Source: Aquisphaera giovannonii
GTDB lineage: Bacteria > Planctomycetota > Planctomycetia > Isosphaerales > Isosphaeraceae
Length of the DNA stretch: 64,000 bases
Assembly (NCBI RefSeq): GCF_008087625.1
Contig: NZ_CP042997.1
Span: 7,688,001 to 7,752,000, forward strand
Reading direction: 5' to 3'
The notes beneath the pieces were generated by a model. That model did no database searches. It was not told the DNA's origin and was given only the letters and a program-made list of their open reading frames with translations. Below, in pieces: positions 568-11,504 of this stretch. The position numbers and the translations under genes are program-made. The stretch's first letter is position 1; every line of letters starts with the position of its first letter.

Positions 568-1929
568 ATGTTCGCTTCTCAACTCGTCCCCCGTCTCGCC
601 ATCGCCGCTTCGCTCCTGCTCGCCGCCCAGGCCGCGGCCCAGGGTCCGCCGGCGCCCGCCGCGAACGATCCCGCCCAGTCGAGCCCCGAGGAGGCCCTGA
701 AGGGCCAGTCGCTGAAGAAATCCGGGGCGGCCTGGATCCTCCCCGACGAGGCGTCCATCCTCAAGGACCTGCGCGATGCCCGCGAGCTGTACCGTCGCGT
801 CGAGCAGGGCATGGCAGGTCAGCAGCAATTCGAGATAGAAGCCCAGCGGCAGAAGATGGAGATGACGCAGCTCCGCACCCAGAGCTCCCTGCTCCAGCAG
901 CAGGTCGAGCACTACGATCAGCAGCTCGAACAGATGGGCTCCTCGGTCGCCGGGAATCCGCTCTTCAACTACCAGCGGGATGAGCTGAGTCAGGAGAGGA
1001 ATCGGATCGTCGGCGCGTTGAACCAGGTCAACAACCGGCTGAACCAGCTCGACAAGGAAGACCGGGACCGGGACAAGAACCGCGACAGCGACCCCTCGCT
1101 CCTGCTCAACGCCGAGGTCGCGGAGGCACGCGAGAAATACATGCAGTCGATCTACGACCTCCGCAAGGCCGTGGATGCATTACGCGACAAATATGCCGAA
1201 CTGGCGAAGAAGCCGGAAGTGACGCAGGCCCTCGACGCCCTGTCCGCCTCGTCGAGGTCGAAGCAGCGACTCGGCCCGTCGAAGCCCCTGCTGGAAGCCA
1301 TCAAGTTCCTGGAGAAGGCCGAGGGCTCGGTCAAGAGCGAGTCGATCGAGCTGCACAGGGAGGGCGGCGTCTTCCACGTCTACGCCACCTTGAACAAGGT
1401 GCCGACGAAGATGGTCTTCGACACCGGGGCGGGCCTCACGACCCTCTCGGCGAAGCTGGCCCAGAAGATCGGCGTGAAGTCCAGCCCGACCGACCAGGAC
1501 GTCGAATTGAAGACGGCCGACGGGACCCTCATCAAGACGAAGGTCCAGATGATCCCGTCGGTCCGGGTCGGCAAGTTTAACGTCCCCAACGTGGAGTGCG
1601 CCGTCATGCCCGAGGACAAGGGCGACATCGACCCGCTCCTCGGCCAGAGCTTCTTCAAGCACTTCAAGGTCGAGTTCCGCCCCGACGCCGGCCGCCTCAG
1701 CCTCAAACGGCTGGAGACCGAATCCGACAACGGGGCGAAGGGCGTGGCCGGCTCCGGCAACGAGTTCAACTCGGACCCGCCCGCGAGCACGAAGGCCACG
1801 GACAAGGCGAGCCCCAGGTCGCGTCGACCGACCCGGACGACCAGGCCGACTCCCCGGGGCAGGCGGCCCGCGACACCCAAAGGCGACATGCCGGCCGATC
1901 CCGCGACGGGCAATTCATCGCCCAACTGA
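568..1929 (+). CDS. secreted retropepsin-like aspartic protease with coiled-coil region
   Basis: The frame runs back to base 55, but the ATG at 568 is chosen because GGGAG lies 8 bases upstream and it opens a signal peptide (residues 1-25, ending AAQAAAQG). The product has 453 residues. Residues 60-215 are rich in Gln, Glu, Arg and Lys with heptad spacing and should form coiled coil. Residues 265-380 carry a single retroviral-type aspartic protease domain: FDTGAG at 284-289 supplies the catalytic Asp (285), and DPLLGQSFF at 355-363 matches the conserved hydrophobic-Gly motif of clan AA proteases. A single domain implies a homodimer, and the coiled coil may provide the dimer contact (inference). 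The tail after residue 395 is Pro/Arg/Thr rich. The gene overlaps the 3' end of the convergent sigma-factor gene by 15 bases. The natural substrate is not evident. Confidence 0.75.
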   Translation: MFASQLVPRLAIAASLLLAAQAAAQGPPAPAANDPAQSSPEEALKGQSLKKSGAAWILPDEASILKDLRDARELYRRVEQGMAGQQQFEIEAQRQKMEMTQLRTQSSLLQQQVEHYDQQLEQMGSSVAGNPLFNYQRDELSQERNRIVGALNQVNNRLNQLDKEDRDRDKNRDSDPSLLLNAEVAEAREKYMQSIYDLRKAVDALRDKYAELAKKPEVTQALDALSASSRSKQRLGPSKPLLEAIKFLEKAEGSVKSESIELHREGGVFHVYATLNKVPTKMVFDTGAGLTTLSAKLAQKIGVKSSPTDQDVELKTADGTLIKTKVQMIPSVRVGKFNVPNVECAVMPEDKGDIDPLLGQSFFKHFKVEFRPDAGRLSLKRLETESDNGAKGVAGSGNEFNSDPPASTKATDKASPRSRRPTRTTRPTPRGRRPATPKGDMPADPATGNSSPN

Positions 1930-3438
1930 ATCGGCTCGTCCGGGCCCGGCCGCCGGTCGCTCGCCGAGCGCCTTCAGTGCGTCGTCCAGCTTCTTCTCGA
2001 GCGCGTCGACTCGGGCCCTGAGCCGAGTCACTTCCCCCTGGACCTGCGAGGCGGAGACGTCGCCGTTGCCCAGCTGGATCTCGGCCTCGACGCGGGCCTG
2101 GACGATCTCGGCCACGTCGGAGACCGTGGCCCTCCCCGCGACGAGCTCCGCACGTTCGCGCGCCTCGATGTCCCTCAGCCGTTGGACGTGCCGCAGGAGC
2201 GGGCCGCGGTCGGCGGACTTGCCCTTCTCCTGGAGTATCCGCTCGGCCACCATGACTGCCCGGCTGGCGTCGACGTACCGGTCGAGGGTGATCCGCCCTT
2301 CCTCGTAGTAGGCCTTCTGGGCCTCCAGTCTTTGTCGTGCGGCCTCCAGCAGGTCGGCCGGATTGGGCTGCGAGAAGGTGCGATCGAGCTTCCTGGTCCC
2401 CTCGGACGCCCCCGAGGCGGCCTCCTCCGCCTTCCCGTCGTCGGATTTCCCGATGGCCTTGCCCACGTCCTGAGCGGCCACGACCCGAACTGCCGCCGGC
2501 CCCTGCCCCGTCCGGGCCACGATGACGGCGCCGCCGGCGATCATCGAGGCCGCGGGGATGAGGCACAGCCCCGCGCGGATCAGCTTCTGCCATGCCATCG
2601 TCTTCAGGACTCCTCTCGCAAGGGGGAACGAACCGGCCCGGAGGAGCGCGATCTCCGAGGCCTCGCAACGCGCGAACAGGGACGCGGTCCGAACAGTCGT
2701 CGCCAGCGTGGCGGCGGAGACCGACGGGGCGACTCCGGCCGCCTCCGCGGCCGTGCCCCCCGCGCCCGCCAACCAGGCCGCCAGGGGCCCGAGCACCGCT
2801 GTGGGCGTCACCCCCCGCCGGAGGAGGCGGCCGCGGAGGCGGTCGCGGCCCCTGGCGAGGCGGCTGCGAACGGTGCCGACCGGCCACCGCAGCCGCGCGG
2901 CGGCCTCGTCGTGCGTCAGCCCTTCGAGGTAACAGAGGACGATGGCAGCCCGCTGATGTTCCGGGAGTCTGGCCAGCTCCTGGTGGACCGCTTCCAGGTC
3001 CGCGGACCGGTCGGTCACCTTCGGATCGCACTCGCCCGGCCGCTCGTCGAAGGCGCATTCGCCCTCGGCCGGCGTCTCGCGACTCCGCCTCGCCAGCATC
3101 CGCACCCTGGCCGTGGTGGCGACCCGAAGGGCCACCCCATGAAGCCAGCTCCCCAGCGAATCCCGGTTCCGCACTTTCCGGGCGCTCCGGGCGAGGACGA
3201 GGAAGACGGCCTGGAACGCGTCGTCGGCGTGGTCCCGGTCCCCGAGCACCTGGCGACAGACCCGGAGGACCATGGGCCCATGCCGATTCACGACCTCCTC
3301 GAACGCACGCTCCGACTCGTCCTCCCGTCCGTCGAGGAACGCGTCGACCAGAGGGCCATCGCCGAGCTCCCCTCGGCCCGCCCCGGAGAAGGGGATCTGG
3401 AGATCCCGGTCCAGCGCCCCGCCGCGCGATTTCGCCAT
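1915..3438 (-). CDS. ECF-type RNA polymerase sigma factor with membrane anchor and helical C-terminal module
   Basis: The 507-residue product starts with a normal ECF sigma factor: region 2 at about 45-110 (HGPMVLRVCRQVLGD, DDAFQAVFLVLAR, SLGSWLHGVALRVA) and region 4 at about 150-205 (LPEHQRAAIVLCYLEGLTHD, VGTVRSRLARGRDRLRGRL). A hydrophobic segment at 286-308 follows and should cross the membrane, placing residues 310-507 outside the cytoplasm or in the periplasm. That part holds a helical hairpin module at 358-456 (AARQRLEAQKAYYEEGRITL, AEIVQARVEAEIQL) and a terminal coiled coil at 465-493. In planctomycetes such tails are common and are thought to act as built-in sensors or anti-sigma domains; that role is inference here. 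The ATG at 3438 is preferred over upstream Met codons because these fall beyond the promoter-like element at 3475-3505. It is a close paralogue of the next gene. Confidence 0.85.
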   Translation of the reverse strand: MAKSRGGALDRDLQIPFSGAGRGELGDGPLVDAFLDGREDESERAFEEVVNRHGPMVLRVCRQVLGDRDHADDAFQAVFLVLARSARKVRNRDSLGSWLHGVALRVATTARVRMLARRSRETPAEGECAFDERPGECDPKVTDRSADLEAVHQELARLPEHQRAAIVLCYLEGLTHDEAAARLRWPVGTVRSRLARGRDRLRGRLLRRGVTPTAVLGPLAAWLAGAGGTAAEAAGVAPSVSAATLATTVRTASLFARCEASEIALLRAGSFPLARGVLKTMAWQKLIRAGLCLIPAASMIAGGAVIVARTGQGPAAVRVVAAQDVGKAIGKSDDGKAEEAASGASEGTRKLDRTFSQPNPADLLEAARQRLEAQKAYYEEGRITLDRYVDASRAVMVAERILQEKGKSADRGPLLRHVQRLRDIEARERAELVAGRATVSDVAEIVQARVEAEIQLGNGDVSASQVQGEVTRLRARVDALEKKLDDALKALGERPAAGPGRADSVGR

Positions 3439-3474
3439 GGCATAGACCCCGCTTCCGTTGAGAAACGCCACCCA

Positions 3475-3505
3475 GTAGTGCGAGGGGGACGGACGATTCA
3501 ATCCC
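3475..3505 (-). promoter_or_regulatory. ECF-type promoter-like element upstream of the 1915-3438 sigma gene
   Basis: Read on the minus strand there is an A-run, then GGGATTG (3499-3505), exactly 18 bases, then CACTAC (3475-3480). The element ends 37 bases before the ATG at 3438. The same words with the same 18-base gap occur before the paralogous sigma gene at 5470-5500. Spacing and position fit the -35 and -10 boxes of a promoter read by an ECF sigma factor. The function is inferred from conservation between the two copies. Confidence 0.55.
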
Positions 3506-3642
3506 TTTTTCTTCGCGGATGATCGGAGATGTCGATTTCGGAAGCCGGGGAGTCGATGCTCTGTCCCGGCCGGTCCTTCGCGGGGCCCTCGCCCTACCGA
3601 GCCGCGGCGGGAATGACCGCATCCTCCCATCGCGAAGCGGCC

Positions 3643-5427
3643 TCATCGGGGCCTCTCGGCGAGCTGCTTCAGGACCTCGCTCAGCGTCTTCTCCACGGCC
3701 TGCAGGCGGGCTTCGAGGGCCTTGATGTCGGGCTCGTCCGCCGCGGGGGCCGCGATGGATCCCCTCAGGCGGAGTTCCGCGGCCACGCGATTCTGCACGA
3801 TCTCGGCGAAGTCGGCGACCGTGCCGCGGCCCGCCTCCATTCGCGCCCGTTCGACCCGCTCGATCTCCTTGAGGCGGTCCACGTGCCTGGCCTGGGCTGC
3901 GCGGCGTCCCTCCTCCGCCCGGGACGCCAGCCGTTCCGCCTCCATGAGCCCCTCGCTGGCTTGAACGTAGCGATCGATCGTGATGCGTCCTTCCTCGTAA
4001 TAGACCCGTTGCGCATCGAGCCGCTGCCGTGCCGCCTCGACGAGGTCCTCGGCCCGCGGCTCCGGGAAGGGCCGATCCAGCAGCACGGAACGGCGGGCGT
4101 ATCCGAGCTCGGTCGCCACGGCGGCCAGGTCTCTGACGAGCTGCTCCTTCTCAACCGTGCCGTCCCGGGCCCGTGCGAACCTCCCTTTCGCGATGGCTTC
4201 CACATCCTCCAGCCTGTGCAGGTGGCGAACCGCCTTGGCGGACCTCGGCTCCTTCCCCAGCATCCCCTCCTCTCCATTGAGCTGGCCCTCTCCCTTGAGC
4301 AAGGCCTCCATCGCGATGCGACCTTCCCGGTACGCCTCCACCTTCTCGTCATAATCGGCCCGGGCCTTCGCGAGCTGCTCCGGAATCGCCTCCGGGGTCG
4401 TCCAGGTCTTAGGGGCGACGTCCTGCCGCGCGAGCGCGACTGAACTCACCTCGGGACGGTCTGGAAGGGTCGTCGGCCTCGCGCCGCCTTTTCCGTGTTG
4501 CGTCTGGGCGACGAGCGCGGCCCCTCCGACGACCATCGAGGCGGCGGGGACGACCGCGAGGGCGGCCAGGGTCAGAGTCCGATACGTCATGGCAGCGAGT
4601 ACCTCCTTCGCCAGGTTCACCGAGCAAGTCGAGAGGAATGCGGTGGCCATCGACTCGCCCCGCGAGAATCGCGAGGCGGTCTGCACGGTCGCCGACAGCA
4701 GCCCCACGGGGATGGCGGCGGGGAAGGCCGCGGTCCCGGCGGCCTCCGCTTCACCCGCCAGCCAGGCGGCGAGCGGGCCCAGCACGGCCGGGACCGTCAC
4801 CCCGCGGCGGGCGAGACGCCCTCGGAGCTGGTCCCGCCCGCGTGCCAGGCGGCTCCGGACGGTGCCGACGGGGCATTGCAAGCGGGCCGCGGCCTGGTCG
4901 TGCGTGAGGCCTTCCAGGTAGCAGAGCACGATCGGCTCGCGATAGGCGTCCCGCAGGCGCACCAGCTCCTCGCGGACGACCTCCGCGTCGTCCTTCCGGC
5001 GGTCGTCGTCGGCCGCCTTGCCGGCGGGCTCCCGCGAGTCGAGGTCGAGCTCGTCGGCCGGCCGCTCCTTCCGCCGCCTCTCGAGGAGCCGCGAGCGGGC
5101 CGCGGCGGAGACGCGCAACGACACCCCATAGAGCCAGCTCGCGAGCGAATCGCGCCGCCGCACCTTCGCCACGCAGCGGGCGAGCACCAGGAACACGGCC
5201 TGGAAGGCGTCGTCCGCCTCGTGAGCGTCGCCCAGCACCTGCCGACAGATCCGTAGGACCATCGGCCCATGCCGCCCCACCAGCAGGCCGAACGCCCGGT
5301 CCCGAACCTCCTCCCGGCCCGTCAGGAAGAGCTCGATCAGCCGAGCGTCGCCGTGCTCCTCGCCGGATTCGCCGGAGAAAAGCAACTCGATGTCCTGATG
5401 GAGCGATTTCGTCCCCGCGTTCGACAT
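3643..5427 (-). CDS. ECF-type RNA polymerase sigma factor with membrane anchor and duplicated helical module
   Basis: This 594-residue paralogue of the downstream sigma factor keeps the same order: region 2 at about 45-115 (HGPMVLRICRQVLGD, DDAFQAVFLVLAR), region 4 at 150-205 (YREPIVLCYLEGLTHDQAAA, VGTVRSRLARGRDQLRGRL), a membrane segment at 284-306, then a helical outer region. The outer region is longer because it contains two related hairpin modules, 350-445 (KVEAYREGRIAMEALL) and 460-556 (AARQRLDAQRVYYEEGRITI), where the paralogue has one. A coiled coil closes the protein at 566-590. The ATG at 5427 has GAGGGGAGGAGCC just upstream; an earlier in-frame Met lies inside the promoter-like element and is rejected. 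The tail is likely to sense an envelope signal or hold the factor at the membrane (inference). Confidence 0.85.
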   Translation of the reverse strand: MSNAGTKSLHQDIELLFSGESGEEHGDARLIELFLTGREEVRDRAFGLLVGRHGPMVLRICRQVLGDAHEADDAFQAVFLVLARCVAKVRRRDSLASWLYGVSLRVSAAARSRLLERRRKERPADELDLDSREPAGKAADDDRRKDDAEVVREELVRLRDAYREPIVLCYLEGLTHDQAAARLQCPVGTVRSRLARGRDQLRGRLARRGVTVPAVLGPLAAWLAGEAEAAGTAAFPAAIPVGLLSATVQTASRFSRGESMATAFLSTCSVNLAKEVLAAMTYRTLTLAALAVVPAASMVVGGAALVAQTQHGKGGARPTTLPDRPEVSSVALARQDVAPKTWTTPEAIPEQLAKARADYDEKVEAYREGRIAMEALLKGEGQLNGEEGMLGKEPRSAKAVRHLHRLEDVEAIAKGRFARARDGTVEKEQLVRDLAAVATELGYARRSVLLDRPFPEPRAEDLVEAARQRLDAQRVYYEEGRITIDRYVQASEGLMEAERLASRAEEGRRAAQARHVDRLKEIERVERARMEAGRGTVADFAEIVQNRVAAELRLRGSIAAPAADEPDIKALEARLQAVEKTLSEVLKQLAERPR

Positions 5428-5469
5428 CGGACCGGCTCCTCCCCTCGCGATGCACCGGATCGTCATCCG

Positions 5470-5500
5470 GTAGTGCATCACACGGGCGAGGACCAATCCC
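5470..5500 (-). promoter_or_regulatory. ECF-type promoter-like element upstream of the 3643-5427 sigma gene
   Basis: On the minus strand a run of seven A, then GGGATTG (5494-5500), 18 bases, then CACTAC (5470-5475), ending 43 bases before the ATG at 5427. It matches the element at 3475-3505 in both words, in the intervening length, and in the A-run in front. After CACTAC the two also share a GG-TG-CG pattern. Autoregulation by one or both sigma factors is the simplest reading. Confidence 0.55.
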
Positions 5501-5530
5501 ACTTTTTTTGCGAAAGGTCGGCGGCGAAGC

Positions 5531-8500
5531 TCAATGCATGGCTTCGCCTGTCGGGCGGTCCTCCGCCTCCCAGACCCGGACGGCGCCGTCGGCCGACGCC
5601 GACGCGAGGACGCGTCCGTCGGGGCTGAAGGCAAGGCCGTGCACCCGGTCCCGGTGGCCCCGCAGCGTGAGGGCCTCGCGACCGGTCTCGGGATCCCAGA
5701 TGCGGATCGTGCGGTCCCCCCCGGCGGAGGCCAGCCGCGAGCCGTCCGGGTGGAAGGTGAGCGCCAGGATCCAGTTCGAATGGCCGGCGAGGGTCCGGAG
5801 GCGCCGCCCGGTTTCCAGGTCCCACAGCTCGATGACCTTCCCGGCGCCGGCGGAGGCCAGGATGCGGCCGTCGGGACTGACGGCCAGGGCATGGACCGGG
5901 CCGCCAGCCTCGGTCACATTGAGCGTGCGCACCAGGCGGCCGCTGCCGTGATCCCAGACGCGGATGAGCCCGTCGCTCCCGGCCGAGATCAGTCGGTCCC
6001 CCTTGCGGGTGTAGGCCAGTGCGTGGATCGATCCGACGTGGCCCGAGAGGGTCCGCAGCGGAGATCCGGTCGCCGGATCTCGAAGCGTGATCGACCGGGG
6101 CCGGCCGTCGGCCGATGGCATCTTGCCGGACGGCTCCTGGACGACCCGGAGCGGATCGCCGCCGCCCGTCGCCAGGACCTTGCCCGACGGGTGGAACGCA
6201 AGGCTCGCGATCCCTTCGTTGTAATCCTCCGCGGAAGCGATCTCGTCGAGCGTCGTCGCATCCAGGATGCGGAGGACGCGATCCGTCCCCGCGACGGCCA
6301 GGCGTTGCCCTTCCGGGCTGTAGCGGACGGACAGCGTCGCGGGCCATCCTGTGTGCGGGTCGCGACGGATCGCCCCCGACCTCGGGTTCCAGACGACCAG
6401 CGATCGCCTGACTCCCCCCACGGCGAGCTCGACGCCGGAGGGATGGAAGGCGAGGCCGCCGACCCAGCCCGGGCGGTCCGATTCGGCTCCGGCGTGCGGG
6501 ACCTCGGCCAGCAGCCTGGATCCGGGCTCGTTCCGCAGGTCCCACACCTTGACGCATGCGTCCTGGCTCGCCGAGGCCAGGCGGGATCCGTCCGGGCTGA
6601 AACGCACGCTGAAGACCGGGGCGGCGTGCCCGTGGAACGTCGCCTGAAGCTCGCCCGTGCGGGCGTCCCAGACCCGGACGGACCGATCCAGGCACGCCGT
6701 CGCGATCCGACGACCATCGGGGCTGTACGCGAGGCCGTCCACGCGGTTGCCGAAGTCGCCGAACCGGAGGCGCTCGGAGCCCGTCTCGATGTCCCAGACG
6801 CGGACCACGCGGTCCTCGCCCGCCGACGCGAGGACCGGCTCGGACGGATGGAAGGTCACGGCGCGCACGACGCCCGCATGCCCGCGAAGTACCCTCTCCG
6901 CCACATCCCCCGGATCCGCGATGCTCCAGATCCGCACCGCGCCGTCGTCTCCCGCGGAGGCGATCCGGCGGCCGTCCGCGCTCAGGGCGACCCCGAAGAC
7001 CGGTCCGGCATGGCCGCGGAAGGTTCGCCCGGACGCGGCCGTGCTCGGCCACGGCGACGCCGCCAGGTCCCAGAGCCGGACGATCCCGTCCTGGCCGGAG
7101 GAGGCGAGCTTCGTCCCGTCCTCGGAGAACGCGACCGCCGCGGCCCAGCCCCGGTGCGCCTGGAAGGACGCCAGGGTCGATCCGTCCTTCAGCTCGTAAA
7201 CTCCCAACCAACCGCCCGGACGGGCGACCGCCAGGCGAGTCCCCGACCGATCGAAGGCGAGCCCGTAGCTCAGGCCGTCATGGCCGGGGATGTGACGGAT
7301 GGCACGGCCCGCCTGAGCATCCCAGAGGAACAGGCCCGCCGGCTCGCCGACGCAGGCGACCTGCTCGCCGTTGGGCTTGAAGGATGCGGCGCAGAGGAAT
7401 CCGTTATGGCCCCGGAGCGTCAACAACTCGGAATGGAAGCGGCGGCGGAGATGATACCACTCCCAGCCGCGGTGCGGCTCGGGGCACCGATCGAGCCATT
7501 CGTCCGCGGAGGACGGGTCGTCGCCCTCCCACGCCCGCTCGGCGGCGGCGACGAGCTCGAAGGCGGAGGATTTGGCCGCCTCCCCCAGCCCGGCCTCCGC
7601 CTGGACGCGTCTCGTCGCCTCGGCGTCGCGTTCGGATTCGGCCCTGGCGGCCGTTGCGTGGCCGCGGATGGCGAGGGCCGTCGCGATCGTCGCCACCGCG
7701 GCCAGGGCCAGGGACGCGGCCACGGCCGGCCGCCGCCTGGCCCACCGGGCGGCCCGCTCCGCGATCGACGCCGGGCGGGCCCGGATGGGGCGGTCGTCGA
7801 GCCATCGCTCCAGGTCTTCGGCCAGCGCCTCCGCGGACGGGTAGCGATCCTCGGGCGACTTGCGGAGGCAGGTCGCCACGATCGTCTCGAGGTCCCTCGG
7901 GATGAGCGGATCGATGGACCTCAGGCGGGGCGCCTCGGCCTCGCGGATGAGCTGGAGCGTGGCCACGACGGTCTCGCCGCGGAACAAGGGCCGGCCCGCG
8001 AGCATCTCGAAGAGGATCGCCCCCAGAGCGTGGATGTCCACCGCCGTCGAGGCCGAGCGGCTCTTGCCCTCGGCCTGCTCCGGCGCCATGTAGCCGGGCG
8101 TGCCGACGACCGATCCGGATGTGGTCAGCCCGTGCGATTCCGCGGACCCGAGGTGCTTCGCCAGTCCGAAGTCCGCCACGACGGGGATCAGCCGGTCGGG
8201 AGGGTCGGCGGCCCGGCCCGCGAGCATGATGTTCGCCGGCTTCAGGTCGCGGTGGAGAATCCCTCGTCGATGGGCGTAATGCACGGCCCTGGCGACGGTC
8301 GCCATCAGCCGGGCTGAGGCCCGGAAATCGCCGCGGAATCGCCCCATCCAGGCGGCGAGGTCGCCACCTTCGACCAGCTTCATGCTGTAGTAATGATATC
8401 CCTCGTGCTCGCCGCTCTCGTAGATGGGCACGATGTTCGGGTGGTCGAGGAGCGCGACCGCCCCCGCCTCGAGCCGGAATCGCACCAGGTCCTCGGGCGA

Positions 8501-8932
8501 GGCGGACCGCCCCTCGCGCGTCATCTTGAGGGCGATCGTGCGGTCCAGGCTCACCTGGCGGGCCCGGTACACGATGCCCATCCCGCCCCTGGCGAGGACG
8601 TCCAGGATCTCATAGTCGCCGAAGTAGCGCACCGGCCCGGGGATCGACCGCGGGGGATCGACCGCGCCCGAGGGCGCCGGGGGATCGGCGGGCGGAAGTT
8701 GCTGCGTGCTGGCCGGGAACGGCAGGATCGCGGGCGAGAGCCGCTCCAGGTGGTCCAGGTTCGCGAAGAACGAGGCCAGCTCCGCTTCGAGATCCGGGGC
8801 GCGTCCGAGGATCGCCGCGCGGTCGGGCGCCTCGCCCCGCTCGACGGCCTCGAGGTAGGCCGCGATGGCCTCGTTGAGCCTGCGCTCGCGATCCGGGCCC
8901 TCCGTGGGCAGGCCGGCCGGGACGCTCGTCAT
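5531..8932 (-). CDS. serine/threonine protein kinase with transmembrane segment and 14 WD40 repeats
   Basis: The 1133-residue protein has a short N-terminal helical region (15-68), a Hanks-type kinase domain at about 107-375, a membrane helix at 403-423 and a long WD40 region to the C-terminus. The kinase looks active: glycine loop RGGMGIVY (115-122), Lys136 in IALKM, HRDLKPAN with catalytic Asp229, DFG at 254-256 and GTPGYMAPEQ. The WD40 part contains 14 recognisable repeats ending in words such as VRLWDL, VRIWSI, VRVWDI and IELWDL, enough for two seven-bladed propellers. The kinase should face the cytoplasm and the propellers the other side of the membrane (inference). The ATG at 8932 follows CGGAG. 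The gene starts 15 bases after the stop of an ECF sigma gene, so the two are probably one transcript and the kinase may control that sigma factor. Confidence 0.92.
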   Translation of the reverse strand: MTSVPAGLPTEGPDRERRLNEAIAAYLEAVERGEAPDRAAILGRAPDLEAELASFFANLDHLERLSPAILPFPASTQQLPPADPPAPSGAVDPPRSIPGPVRYFGDYEILDVLARGGMGIVYRARQVSLDRTIALKMTREGRSASPEDLVRFRLEAGAVALLDHPNIVPIYESGEHEGYHYYSMKLVEGGDLAAWMGRFRGDFRASARLMATVARAVHYAHRRGILHRDLKPANIMLAGRAADPPDRLIPVVADFGLAKHLGSAESHGLTTSGSVVGTPGYMAPEQAEGKSRSASTAVDIHALGAILFEMLAGRPLFRGETVVATLQLIREAEAPRLRSIDPLIPRDLETIVATCLRKSPEDRYPSAEALAEDLERWLDDRPIRARPASIAERAARWARRRPAVAASLALAAVATIATALAIRGHATAARAESERDAEATRRVQAEAGLGEAAKSSAFELVAAAERAWEGDDPSSADEWLDRCPEPHRGWEWYHLRRRFHSELLTLRGHNGFLCAASFKPNGEQVACVGEPAGLFLWDAQAGRAIRHIPGHDGLSYGLAFDRSGTRLAVARPGGWLGVYELKDGSTLASFQAHRGWAAAVAFSEDGTKLASSGQDGIVRLWDLAASPWPSTAASGRTFRGHAGPVFGVALSADGRRIASAGDDGAVRIWSIADPGDVAERVLRGHAGVVRAVTFHPSEPVLASAGEDRVVRVWDIETGSERLRFGDFGNRVDGLAYSPDGRRIATACLDRSVRVWDARTGELQATFHGHAAPVFSVRFSPDGSRLASASQDACVKVWDLRNEPGSRLLAEVPHAGAESDRPGWVGGLAFHPSGVELAVGGVRRSLVVWNPRSGAIRRDPHTGWPATLSVRYSPEGQRLAVAGTDRVLRILDATTLDEIASAEDYNEGIASLAFHPSGKVLATGGGDPLRVVQEPSGKMPSADGRPRSITLRDPATGSPLRTLSGHVGSIHALAYTRKGDRLISAGSDGLIRVWDHGSGRLVRTLNVTEAGGPVHALAVSPDGRILASAGAGKVIELWDLETGRRLRTLAGHSNWILALTFHPDGSRLASAGGDRTIRIWDPETGREALTLRGHRDRVHGLAFSPDGRVLASASADGAVRVWEAEDRPTGEAMH

Positions 8933-8947
8933 GGCGGACTCCGCGGT

Positions 8948-9517
8948 TCAGGACTCGTCCAGGTTCGCCCGCAACGCCTTGAGCCCCCGATGCAGCAGGC
9001 CGGCGACCGCCGGCCGCGTCGTCCCGAGCGCGGCGGCGATCTCGGCGAGGGGCATACCTTGGAGATGGTGCATCTCGACGGCCCGCCGCTGATTCTCCGG
9101 CAGCGCCTCGAGCGCCCGCGCCACCGCGAGCATCCGCTCGTGGTGGATCAGCTTGCGGCTCGGCGAGGGCTCGCCGTCGGCCAGGCAGTCCGCGAGCCTC
9201 GCCGACGACTGGTCCAGCGCGGCCGTCAGCGAGCGGACGCGGCGGACGTCCCGCTTCTGCGTGTTGAGCCTCCTGAGCCCGTCGGCCAAGTTGTGGCCGA
9301 GGATGGCCCGGAGCCAGGCGGCCGCCTCGTCCTCGGTCCGACCGCGCGGGTCGGCCGACATCCCCCGGACGGCCTCCAGCAGCGTCTGCTGGACCACCCC
9401 GGAAAGGTCCAGCCGATCGCGCAAGGCCGGGCTCACCTGCGCCCTCGCGAGGACGTTCAGGTAAGCCCGGAATCGCTCCAGGTCCTCGGCCGTCATGGGC
9501 TCGGGTGTCGAGGTCAT
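8948..9517 (-). CDS. short ECF RNA polymerase sigma factor linked to the kinase
   Basis: The 189-residue product has sigma region 2 at about 30-95 (VVQQTLLEAVRGM, AAAWLRAILGHNLADGLRR) and region 4 at about 130-185 (LEALPENQRRAVEMHHLQGM, LAEIAAALGTTRPAVAGLLH). Unlike the two long ECF factors in this window it has no membrane tail. It lies immediately upstream of the kinase/WD40 gene on the same strand with a 15-base gap, an arrangement well known in planctomycetes for ECF factors controlled by Ser/Thr kinases. Control by phosphorylation is therefore likely but not shown. The ATG at 9517 gives the usual start for the family; no clear ribosome-binding site precedes it. A GGGAAC word at 9588-9593 on the minus strand resembles an ECF -35 box, without a convincing partner. 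Confidence 0.85.
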   Translation of the reverse strand: MTSTPEPMTAEDLERFRAYLNVLARAQVSPALRDRLDLSGVVQQTLLEAVRGMSADPRGRTEDEAAAWLRAILGHNLADGLRRLNTQKRDVRRVRSLTAALDQSSARLADCLADGEPSPSRKLIHHERMLAVARALEALPENQRRAVEMHHLQGMPLAEIAAALGTTRPAVAGLLHRGLKALRANLDES

Positions 9518-9599
9518 GGCATACCGCCAGGGGCGTCGGGGACGGGCACGGCGATCCTCCGGCCCAGTGTAATGGGGCGCGACCGGCGTTCCCAGGCGA

Positions 9600-11504
9600 T
9601 CACCGCGGGGCGTCGGGTTGCATCGCGACCGAAGGCCGGTCCTGGACTGAGGCCCAGAGCGCGTCCACGCGGTCGGCCCGGCCCAGCTCCGCGTAGAGGT
9701 AGGCCAGCTCCATCCTCGCGGTGCGCTCGTCCGCCAGGCCGAGGGCCGGGGCCCCTGGCGCCAGCGACGCCTCGAGCGCGGCCGCCGTCGCCTCCGCGGA
9801 CCCGGCCCGCCGCAGGCTCTTCGCATAGCCGCGACCGACCCACCAGTCGCGGAACCATGCGGAGTTCGCCGGGTCAAGCTTGTCCCGGTAGGAGGCCGAT
9901 CGCTGGCGGATGCAGGCCTCGTACGCGGCGGCGGCCGATCGATCGACGCCGCTCCCCTCCAGCGCCGCGGCGCGGATCTCGTCGGGCGGGTTGGCGATCT
10001 CGCCGAGGCGGACCTCGAGCAGGGCCTTCGTCCGCCGCGCCTCGAGCTCGTTGAGGATCGCGACGCCGTGGGCCTTCGCCTCCTGGTCCTGGCCGATCTC
10101 GCGGAGCAACCGGGCGAGTTGGGCACGCGTCTCCAGGCCGCCCGCCGCCATGGGGGTGCCGTCCGCGGCGTTGTGCACGGCCGACCGGAGCTCGGTGACC
10201 AGCTCGGTCGTCAGCAGCCGGCGGCAGGCGAGGCGGACGTCCTCGCTCTCTGTGGTCCTCATCACCCTGCGGATGATCGGCTCCGCGTATCGGCCCTGGT
10301 CCCTCAGGAACCGGTAGGCGTCTTCGCGGGTGGTCGCGTCCGGGCTCGTGAGGCCCTCCACGGCGACCTCCGCCCTCCGCTCACGCTCCTTCGAGAGGAG
10401 CTCCAGGCGTCCCACCATCACCCTCACGAGCTTCTCCGGCCTCGGCGTGATGCCCATGGGGATGAAGGCGTCGGTCCAGGTCTGCGGCAGGACGAACAAC
10501 GCTCGGATGCCTTCGGTTTTGAAGTAGCTGGCCGTCCACGTGTTGACCATCGCACGTGCCTCCTTCTCATAGAGGCCGGCGGCGGCGAGCCGGGCGGCCA
10601 GGTGGTCGGCGATGGCCTTCGTGAACTCCTCGACCGGCCGGGCGTCGTCCATCGACGGGATGACCCCGGACGCGGACGCCCCGGGATCGAGGCGGGGGAT
10701 ATGACGATAGGTGGCCCGTCCGTCCTCGACCCGCAGGACGAACACGTCGCGGATGCCGTCCGCGACGGTCGGGTCGGCCTGCACGGCGAGCGTCCCGCCC
10801 GCGCCGGCGTCGATCGTGACGGGGAGCCGGGCCTCCCCGAGCCCCCGGTAGAAGAGGAAACGCTCGTACTCGGGGACGGCGGGTGTCCGGGCGACGTCCT
10901 GCGTCCTGACGTAGGCGGCGTCCACGTCCCGGGCGAAAGTCCAGAGCGCATCCGCGGAGGTCTCGGGGACTCGCGGCGCGTCCGCGGATTGCCGCCGCAG
11001 CGCCTCTTCGGCCATCGTGCGGGGGATGACGTCCACGTTCCAGCAGATCCGCCCGCCGCCGACCTTGCCGGCGGCCTGGGCCTGCTCGGCCAGCGTGGGC
11101 ACGACGCGTCGGGCCTGGGGATACCACTGGGTCCACACCCCCTTCGGGAAGCCCACGGCGACCTGCACGGCCTGGGGCTTGTCCGTGTAGAAGTAGATGA
11201 CCGGCGTCTCCCCCTTGGTGAAGATCGACGGGATCCTGAGCTGGTCGCGGCTCCTCGCGTGGACGAACGGGGGCAGGGCGTGCTCCTCGTGGTACATGCC
11301 GTCCAGGGAGGTCCCGTCGGAGCCGTTCATGCCGAGGAACGTGCCCCACTCGTGGACGACCAGGCCCGGGCCCGGATCCGCGGCGGCCGGCGGCTTCGCC
11401 TCCGCCGCGGTGCCGAGCGGACGCGTCGTCGGCGCGATGGCCAGGGCCGCTCCCAGGGCGCAAAGGAACGTCAGCCCGGCCGCCTGTCTCTTCAGCGGAA
11501 TCAT
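9600..11504 (-). CDS. secreted protein of unknown function with VHEWGTF motif
   Basis: The 634-residue protein begins with a signal peptide (about 1-35, ending LGTAAEA) and then the word VVHEWGTFLGMNGSDG, which I recognise from a widespread but uncharacterised family of secreted bacterial proteins. The middle (residues 60-380) looks like mixed beta structure (YFYTDKPQAVQVAVGFPKG, GRICWNVDVIPR). From about 390 to the end the sequence is helical with repeat-like blocks (TREDAYRFLRDQGRYAEP, ARMELAYLYAELGRADRV) and may be a HEAT/TPR-type solenoid. The start at 11504 has GAGGGG about 12 bases upstream. It is followed on the same strand by the ECF/kinase pair, but the 82-base gap and content give no functional link. 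No enzyme motif was identified. Confidence 0.7.
   Translation of the reverse strand: MIPLKRQAAGLTFLCALGAALAIAPTTRPLGTAAEAKPPAAADPGPGLVVHEWGTFLGMNGSDGTSLDGMYHEEHALPPFVHARSRDQLRIPSIFTKGETPVIYFYTDKPQAVQVAVGFPKGVWTQWYPQARRVVPTLAEQAQAAGKVGGGRICWNVDVIPRTMAEEALRRQSADAPRVPETSADALWTFARDVDAAYVRTQDVARTPAVPEYERFLFYRGLGEARLPVTIDAGAGGTLAVQADPTVADGIRDVFVLRVEDGRATYRHIPRLDPGASASGVIPSMDDARPVEEFTKAIADHLAARLAAAGLYEKEARAMVNTWTASYFKTEGIRALFVLPQTWTDAFIPMGITPRPEKLVRVMVGRLELLSKERERRAEVAVEGLTSPDATTREDAYRFLRDQGRYAEPIIRRVMRTTESEDVRLACRRLLTTELVTELRSAVHNAADGTPMAAGGLETRAQLARLLREIGQDQEAKAHGVAILNELEARRTKALLEVRLGEIANPPDEIRAAALEGSGVDRSAAAAYEACIRQRSASYRDKLDPANSAWFRDWWVGRGYAKSLRRAGSAEATAAALEASLAPGAPALGLADERTARMELAYLYAELGRADRVDALWASVQDRPSVAMQPDAPR

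Follow-up and report, generated by a model that had tools for sequence, protein, structure and literature searches.

Planctomycetes are known for large repertoires of ECF sigma factors. The group ECF57, as it appears in Table 2 of PMC8999054 with WP_015250107.1 of Singulisphaera acidiphila as its model protein, is characterized by a C-terminal extension and two conserved cysteines; WD40-like repeats are described there for some members without being required of all, and for the tailed kind the review merely suggests mechanisms. A literature search for papers linking ECF57 or ECF01-Gob with Planctomycetes found none.

For E. coli sigma-E, the contacts reported in PMC6713349 place R176 on G-35, S172 on the -34 base and R171 on the -31 base of the template strand, and in the structure of PMC6411747 the flipped -9 base is held by the specificity loop. 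A code connecting ECF residues with promoter bases is that of Todor et al. 2020 (PNAS), as cited in PMC8103513, which also puts the autoregulated share of ECFs at ~55%. Going by that account, the principle of self-recognition and of such a code is already published.

Here, two tandem sigma genes of Aquisphaera giovannonii are described, which lie in a stretch of 64,000 nucleotides (the window; contig NZ_CP042997.1, positions 7,688,001 to 7,752,000). The locus is like the systems of Todor et al. 2020, as far as PMC8103513 presents them, in having a predicted target promoter before the sigma factor's own gene and promoter bases tied to the contact residues of sigma2 and sigma4; it is unlike them in that the code was derived inside one expanded planctomycete family, and the -10 element is CAnTA, compared with the CGT hallmark quoted in PMC8103513. 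With the E. coli sigma-E promoters it would share the contacts at -35, -34 and -31, where R176, S172 and R171 (PMC6713349) match the covarying family residues 196, 192 and 191. In contrast to those promoters, whose -35 element is GGAACTT, the window promoters read GGATTG in place of GGAACT, with CACTAC at -10, and unlike sigma-E the encoded sigma factors carry a long C-terminal tail. The likeness to ECF57 as described in PMC8999054 lies in that extension and in two conserved cysteines, one each in regions 2 and 4, whereas, unlike in some ECF57 members, a search of the tails of genes 1 and 2 gave no match to WD40 repeats.

Results

Two tandem sigma genes with long tails

The features of the locus are collected in Table 1. 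Pfam models Sigma70_r2 and r4_2 as well as TIGR02937 score above cut-off in both proteins, and the Pfam search listed no region 3 model for either, so that both have the domain content of ECF sigma factors, i.e., sigma-70 regions 2 and 4 with no region 3. Gene 1 and gene 2 are 55% identical across gene 2 residues 8-321 and have the tail in common; each is the best match of the other within the genome, and the pair therefore probably arose by an old tandem duplication. Residues 458-498 of the gene 2 tail have a counterpart of 59% identity in a separate 895-codon frame (G000:C1:7842834-7842950), and the tail repeat therefore also exists outside the two genes. The gene 2 tail has a weak, below-cut-off similarity to outer-membrane efflux protein (PF02321, E 0.0034), and an AlphaFold model of gene 2, built from two sequences and poor (mean pLDDT 55.1), only suggests that this tail might be all-helical.

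Table 1. Positions of the sigma genes and of their putative promoter elements in the window
Feature	Positions	Strand	Remarks
Gene 1, ECF sigma of 507 aa, long tail at the C-terminus	1915..3438	-	ATG at 3438; sigma-70 regions 2 and 4; hydrophobic segment from ~residue 289
Gene 2, ECF sigma of 594 aa, long tail at the C-terminus	3643..5427	-	ATG at 5427; sigma-70 regions 2 and 4; closest paralog of gene 1
-10 element CACTAC, gene 1	3475..3480	-	third base C at 3478 = predicted -9; family motif CAnTA; covariation with residues 89-97
-35 element GGGATTG, gene 1	3499..3505	-	G3504 = predicted -35, G3503 = -34, T3500 = -31
A-rich tract AAGAAAAA, gene 1, upstream of -35	3506..3513	-	belongs to family motif
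-10 element CACTAC, gene 2	5470..5475	-	C at 5473 = predicted -9; family motif
-35 element GGGATTG, gene 2	5494..5500	-	G5499 = predicted -35, G5498 = -34, T5495 = -31
A-tract AAAAAAA, gene 2, upstream of -35	5503..5509	-	family motif
Predicted transcription start, gene 1	3469	-	by register, counting -9 at 3478
Predicted transcription start, gene 2	5464	-	by register, counting -9 at 5473
Inverted repeat over -10 and first transcribed bases, gene 2	5449..5479	-	6+6 bp, 3-base bulge

Upstream, the gene for a protein that joins a Ser/Thr kinase to a large WD40 propeller (5531-8932, minus strand) ends 103 bases before the gene 2 ATG, and the gene 2 promoter therefore sits within that gap; beyond the kinase, on its upstream side, there is a further reading frame for a sigma factor (8948-10126). 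At the other side, a convergent gene (568-1929, plus strand) with a retropepsin-like aspartyl protease domain (PF13975) overlaps the 3' end of gene 1, and its product might, speculatively, be a candidate processor of membrane-tethered sigma factors.

The family to which both proteins belong was collected from 76 matches in the own genome, of which 51 clear members of the tailed sigma family were kept, 24 weaker matches and the tail piece of gene 1 itself being set aside. From the relatives, 110 of 231 matches in five genomes were taken, best first and with complete genomes favoured, which together with one match from a sixth genome gave 111 sequences; each of the five relatives has 30-75 tailed-sigma matches. 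In the alignment, which holds 161 of the 162 proteins (one was too short), Cys61 in region 2 is conserved in 157/161 and Cys169 in region 4 in 158/161, and both are present in the window proteins. Of the 51 own members, 30 were available with more than 330 aa, and 25 of these have a hydrophobic segment after sigma4. By the described features, namely the cysteines and the extension, and with the published profile of the group left aside, the family appears to be ECF57-like.

An in-frame TAG lies inside the match of one paralog, L023 (G000:C1:4850285-4851238), which is possibly a decayed copy. A search for orthologs of the window genes in 44 other genomes of the host family, which scored up to 29 candidates per genome and left out four distant loci from a contig search, returned just three weaker matches at E<=1e-58, in two genomes.

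An identical bipartite element before both genes

An earlier note on this DNA had pointed to the minus-strand element GGGATTG-N18-CACTAC at 3475-3505 and 5470-5500, and both copies are present without mismatch. They are the only exact copies in the whole genome of 10,526,296 bases (three contigs), in which one further copy with a single mismatch was found (L003, whose 3 kb locus is without an ECF match), as was one copy of the reversed control pattern. From CACTAC to the ATG there are 36 bases at gene 1 and 42 at gene 2, in agreement with the 37 and 43 of the earlier note, which are coordinate differences, and the A-runs that it described do lie upstream of both elements. It should be noted that a loose search with three mismatches allowed gave 11 matches in the window, which is the chance level (mean 10.2); the evidence comes from the exactness of the match, from where it lies and from the pattern across the family, rather than from two loose boxes.

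The same note had held that the match is more than the trace of a recent duplication, and this is borne out: the 18-base spacers of the two sites are identical at just 3/18 positions, the duplication is likely to be old, and conserved contact bases explain the match. That the sites are functionless leftovers of the tandem duplication would suit two genes that are mutual best matches with a tail in common; yet all 13 box bases were kept while the spacers diverged, and similar boxes precede other paralogs, 42-49% identical, with the same contact residues, which makes leftovers exceedingly improbable.

The inverted repeat at the gene 2 -10 element folds, as DNA, with -10.9 kcal/mol (z -4.1) and may act as an operator or, in the mRNA, as a hairpin; the corresponding stretch of gene 1, folded likewise, gave no such fold (z -0.85). 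The overlap of this repeat with the -10 element is what would speak for an operator of another DNA-binding protein as the explanation of the motif, the repeat being absent, however, at gene 1. Neither such an operator nor a housekeeping sigma-70 promoter would explain the GGA core, the ECF spacing and the covariation with sigma residues described below, and a consensus scan of 3300-5700 showed no sigma-70-like promoter, which is weak evidence because none is expected by chance either. Thus, we give these two explanations next to no credence.

A family-wide promoter motif

Motif discovery was performed with a two-block mixture model that had a free gap and did not use position, and was compared with 8 dinucleotide shuffles. 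The log-likelihood was 217.9 for the 51 upstream regions of the own genome, compared with 120.0-141.9 in the shuffles, and 515.6, compared with 148.7-174.9, for the 111 relatives from six other genomes, which were run separately. The motif obtained from the relatives only, AaAAAnntGGAa-N19-CAnTAc, has the same A-tract/tGGAw/CAnTA layout as that of the own genome. When the upstream regions were pooled, 147/162 had a site with a posterior >0.5, with a gap of 19 between the boxes in 106 of them and of 20 in 22. The family promoter consists of an A-tract, GGAW at -35, ~20 bp and CAnTA at -10, ~40 bases before the start; the distance to the start clusters at ~40 although the model ignored position. 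Among the 147 sites, the commonest -35 heptamer is GGGATTG (7/147) and the commonest -10 is CACTA (31/147). Thus, the window motif exemplifies a family-wide promoter that changes its bases with the sigma factor, most members being one base shorter between the boxes, and what precedes the sigma genes is an ECF-type -35/-10 pair at ECF spacing.

With the relatives-only matrix, 29/51 own upstream regions have a site at a score >=10, where 0.18 would be expected (from 30 of 926,278 background positions at this score). The other 22/51 have no site at a score >=10, and autoregulation is therefore not established for every family member.

Promoter bases covary with contact residues of the adjacent sigma factor

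For 134 of the 161 sigma/promoter pairs (posterior >0.8, distance 15-120; 33 from the own genome), the sigma columns and 26 DNA positions were compared by mutual information, expressed as z over 200 permutations, with 5157 pairs tested. A z>12 was reached by nine residue-base pairs, all of which connect residues 89-109 with -10 bases or residues 191-192 with -35 bases. The highest values belong to 192/-34 (34.6) and 191/-31 (22.9), followed at z 12.4-18.6 by the third base of CAnTA with residues 89, 90, 91, 94 and 97; residue 101 with the second CAnTA base and residue 109 with the base before CAnTA (d0) both have z 12.4. The best residues for d0 and the first three CAnTA bases are 109, 105, 101 and 97, spaced one helical turn apart. 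The mapping is close to a code: residue 192 specifies base -34 (S to G in 80/84, G to T in 26/28, V/T to A in 16/16), residue 191 base -31 (K to C in 39/39, S to G in 13/17, R to T in 24/43), and residue 97 the third -10 base (S to C in 33/38, N to G in 14/15, P to T in 33/48). The promoter bases thus match the contact residues of the sigma factor encoded downstream.

In a BLAST alignment, family residue 193 corresponds to residue 173 of E. coli sigma-E (191 aa), and 191, 192 and 196 are therefore R171, S172 and R176. The covarying residues for the -35 element, found without structural input, are those that the sigma-E contacts of PMC6713349 place on the same bases. Counted from G-35 at 5499, the third CAnTA base of gene 2 (5473) falls on -9, the position of the flipped base in PMC6411747; for the other -10 bases, the correspondence with that structure would be approximate.

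Covariation can also be produced by kinship, and three sets of controls back the covariation beyond it. In 67 disjoint nearest (sister) pairs, chosen with the contact regions masked and with a median identity of 58%, the -34 base differs in 3/40 pairs when residue 192 is the same and in 22/27 when it is different; the Fisher values are 4.8e-10 for 192/-34, 1.4e-7 for 191/-31 and 5.2e-5 for 196/-35, and in each case no other column did better. Column 94 came first for the third -10 base (3e-6), 187 rather than 109 for d0, and 104 for -30. A tree was then built with the contact columns left out, and path-disjoint pairs on it were scored as same or opposite: 192S/-34G gave 26 same and 0 opposite of 28, 191K/-31C 16 and 0 of 20, 97S/third base C 11 and 0 of 20, and 109R or K/G 11 and 0 of 19, with weaker results for 191S/-31G (7 and 1 of 10, p 0.039), 101G/second base A (6 and 0 of 15, p 0.062) and 97N/third base G (4 and 0 of 8, p 0.12); branch support in this tree is low, and the supported branches alone leave too few pairs for a test (1-4 among those listed). 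Six cross-site controls on the tree gave p from 0.18 to 1.

In a hold-out, the 33 own promoters were predicted with code frequencies from 101 relatives; just the frequencies came from the relatives, as the residue positions for this test and for the matching test had been picked on the pooled set including the own genome. The code was clearly better than the nearest relative at -34 only (31/33 correct, vs 22 for the nearest relative and 21 for the majority base). Elsewhere the gain was small or nil (code; nearest relative, majority base): -31, 22 (21, 15); -32, 21 (21, 12); -30, 16 (16, 10); third -10 base, 23 (20, 12); d0, 25 (24, 25); -35, 31 (31, 31). When sigma factors were matched with promoters, the cognate promoter ranked first of 33 for 17 sigma factors and among the top three for 25, with a mean log2 ratio of 3.45, compared with -3.92 (sd 0.69) for permuted pairs, and 0/20000 permutations reached 3.45.

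These results bear on the idea that one master ECF sigma factor, or a few, drive the whole family via a shared promoter type without self-recognition. The A-tract, GGA and CAnTA core is common to most members, as a master would require, and five sigma factors with R191/S192/S97 could activate one another, but promoters that each track the contact residues of the adjacent sigma factor are not what one common reader would produce. A master sigma factor is therefore, in our view, very unlikely.

Specificity of the pair and predicted cross-talk

Both window sigma factors have R191, S192 and S97, and GGATTG/CACTA is therefore predicted for both of their promoters. Of 14 members with these three residues, 13 have GAT[TA]G and 11 CACTA; L183 deviates in both boxes, and L150 and L161, both with D91, in the -10 only. 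Residues 186-199 are identical in the two proteins and S94, S97, G101 and R105 are common to them, while 91 and 109 differ; given the shared residues, the two sigma factors should read one sequence and activate each other. The exact identity of the two elements fits equal contact residues kept after the old duplication.

Three further paralogs with R191/S192/S97 (L007, L010 and L012) would probably join in the cross-activation, and a group of five sigma factors that recognize each other's promoters is predicted, after which the code scores drop sharply. By code score, the gene 1 sigma factor does not prefer its own promoter to those of L012, L007, gene 2 and L010, and self- and cross-activation are therefore indistinguishable for the pair. 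An avoidance of shared specificities within the genome was absent: the 50 own members have 39 contact-residue signatures, vs 39.5 classes expected.

Searches for a regulon

The earlier note had also offered the bare motif as a means of finding a regulon, a use for which it proved unsuitable. GGGATTG-N17..18-CACTA had 20 matches in 45 genomes of the host family, vs 10 for the reversed control, with an ECF gene downstream in 4; the remaining 16 are six copies of one repeated element and ten matches without an ECF match. The six near-identical copies of GGGATTG-N17-CACTA (L219, L224, L231, L234, L235 and L233, in three relatives) lie 10 bases before a common MIDPLPIP-like frame, which is long in L219 only (483 aa), hits contig ends in four and stops after 30 codons in L233. 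The L219 frame is presumably an IS66-type transposase, and the six copies, which have no A-tract, are probably chance occurrences at the end of a mobile element.

In the own genome, the composite AAAN4-GGATTG-N18/N17-CACTA (<=1 mismatch) had 2/1 matches, all before long-tailed ECF genes, with 0 in the control. L007 (GGATAG) and L010 (weaker A-tract) fall outside this composite and are matched by the bare GGATWG and GGATTG searches, respectively: GGATWG-N17..18-CACTA gave 5 matches, 4 before family genes (control 3), and GGATTG-N16..19-CACTA likewise 5 and 4 (control 1). The two matches left over, L110 and L215, lack both an ECF match and a convincing nearby gene start. The strict but general pattern AAAA-GGA-CABTA had 9 matches in four genomes, vs 11 for the control, with an ECF match downstream at 3/9 loci. 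In a matrix scan of a 464 kb sample of the own genome, the window sites came out on top (22.0 and 20.9, next 16.3) with a pooled matrix that includes both, and none of the other listed matches, judged without gene calls, was clearly a promoter. In the own genome, the motif marks sigma genes alone, as far as seen, and is no broad regulon motif; targets with poorer matches may exist, the scan having covered 4.4% of the genome.

Discussion

It is highly probable, judged from sequence comparison, that both sites serve as promoters for the tandem ECF57-like sigma genes, and that each is read by the sigma factor of its own gene, with self-amplification once that sigma factor is active. The motif recurs across the family, at a set position, and covaries with the adjacent sigma factor; actual transcription, positive feedback and cross-activation are inferred. 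The earlier reading of the element as an autoregulated ECF promoter has thereby gained strong inferential support, as its bases belong to a set of 134 pairs in which promoter bases covary with DNA-contacting residues of the adjacent sigma factor.

In the proposed mechanism, region 4.2 would read the -35 element, with R196 on G-35, S192 on G-34 and R191 on -31 and its neighbours, while the specificity loop of region 2 and the next helix would read the -10 element, residues 89-97 acting on the third CAnTA base and 101-109 on the preceding bases. The putative membrane-anchored tail would hold the sigma factor inactive until a signal acts, and each gene would amplify its own expression once its sigma factor is active.

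The genomes of the host family carry dozens of tailed sigma factors. One possible, though rather doubtful, extension of the preferred reading is that each of them would mainly read its own promoter. There would then be many self-activating loops, for the most part separate from one another and with hardly any or no targets beyond themselves, and the sigma domain would chiefly serve to switch on the fused membrane-anchored tail, which would be the output instead of a regulon.

The residue-to-base table for one ECF57-like family means that target promoters would be predictable from sequence and start codons could be checked. Groups with cross-talk, for example the five sigma factors predicted here, can be named, and the family offers a large natural set of sigma/promoter pairs with differing specificities.
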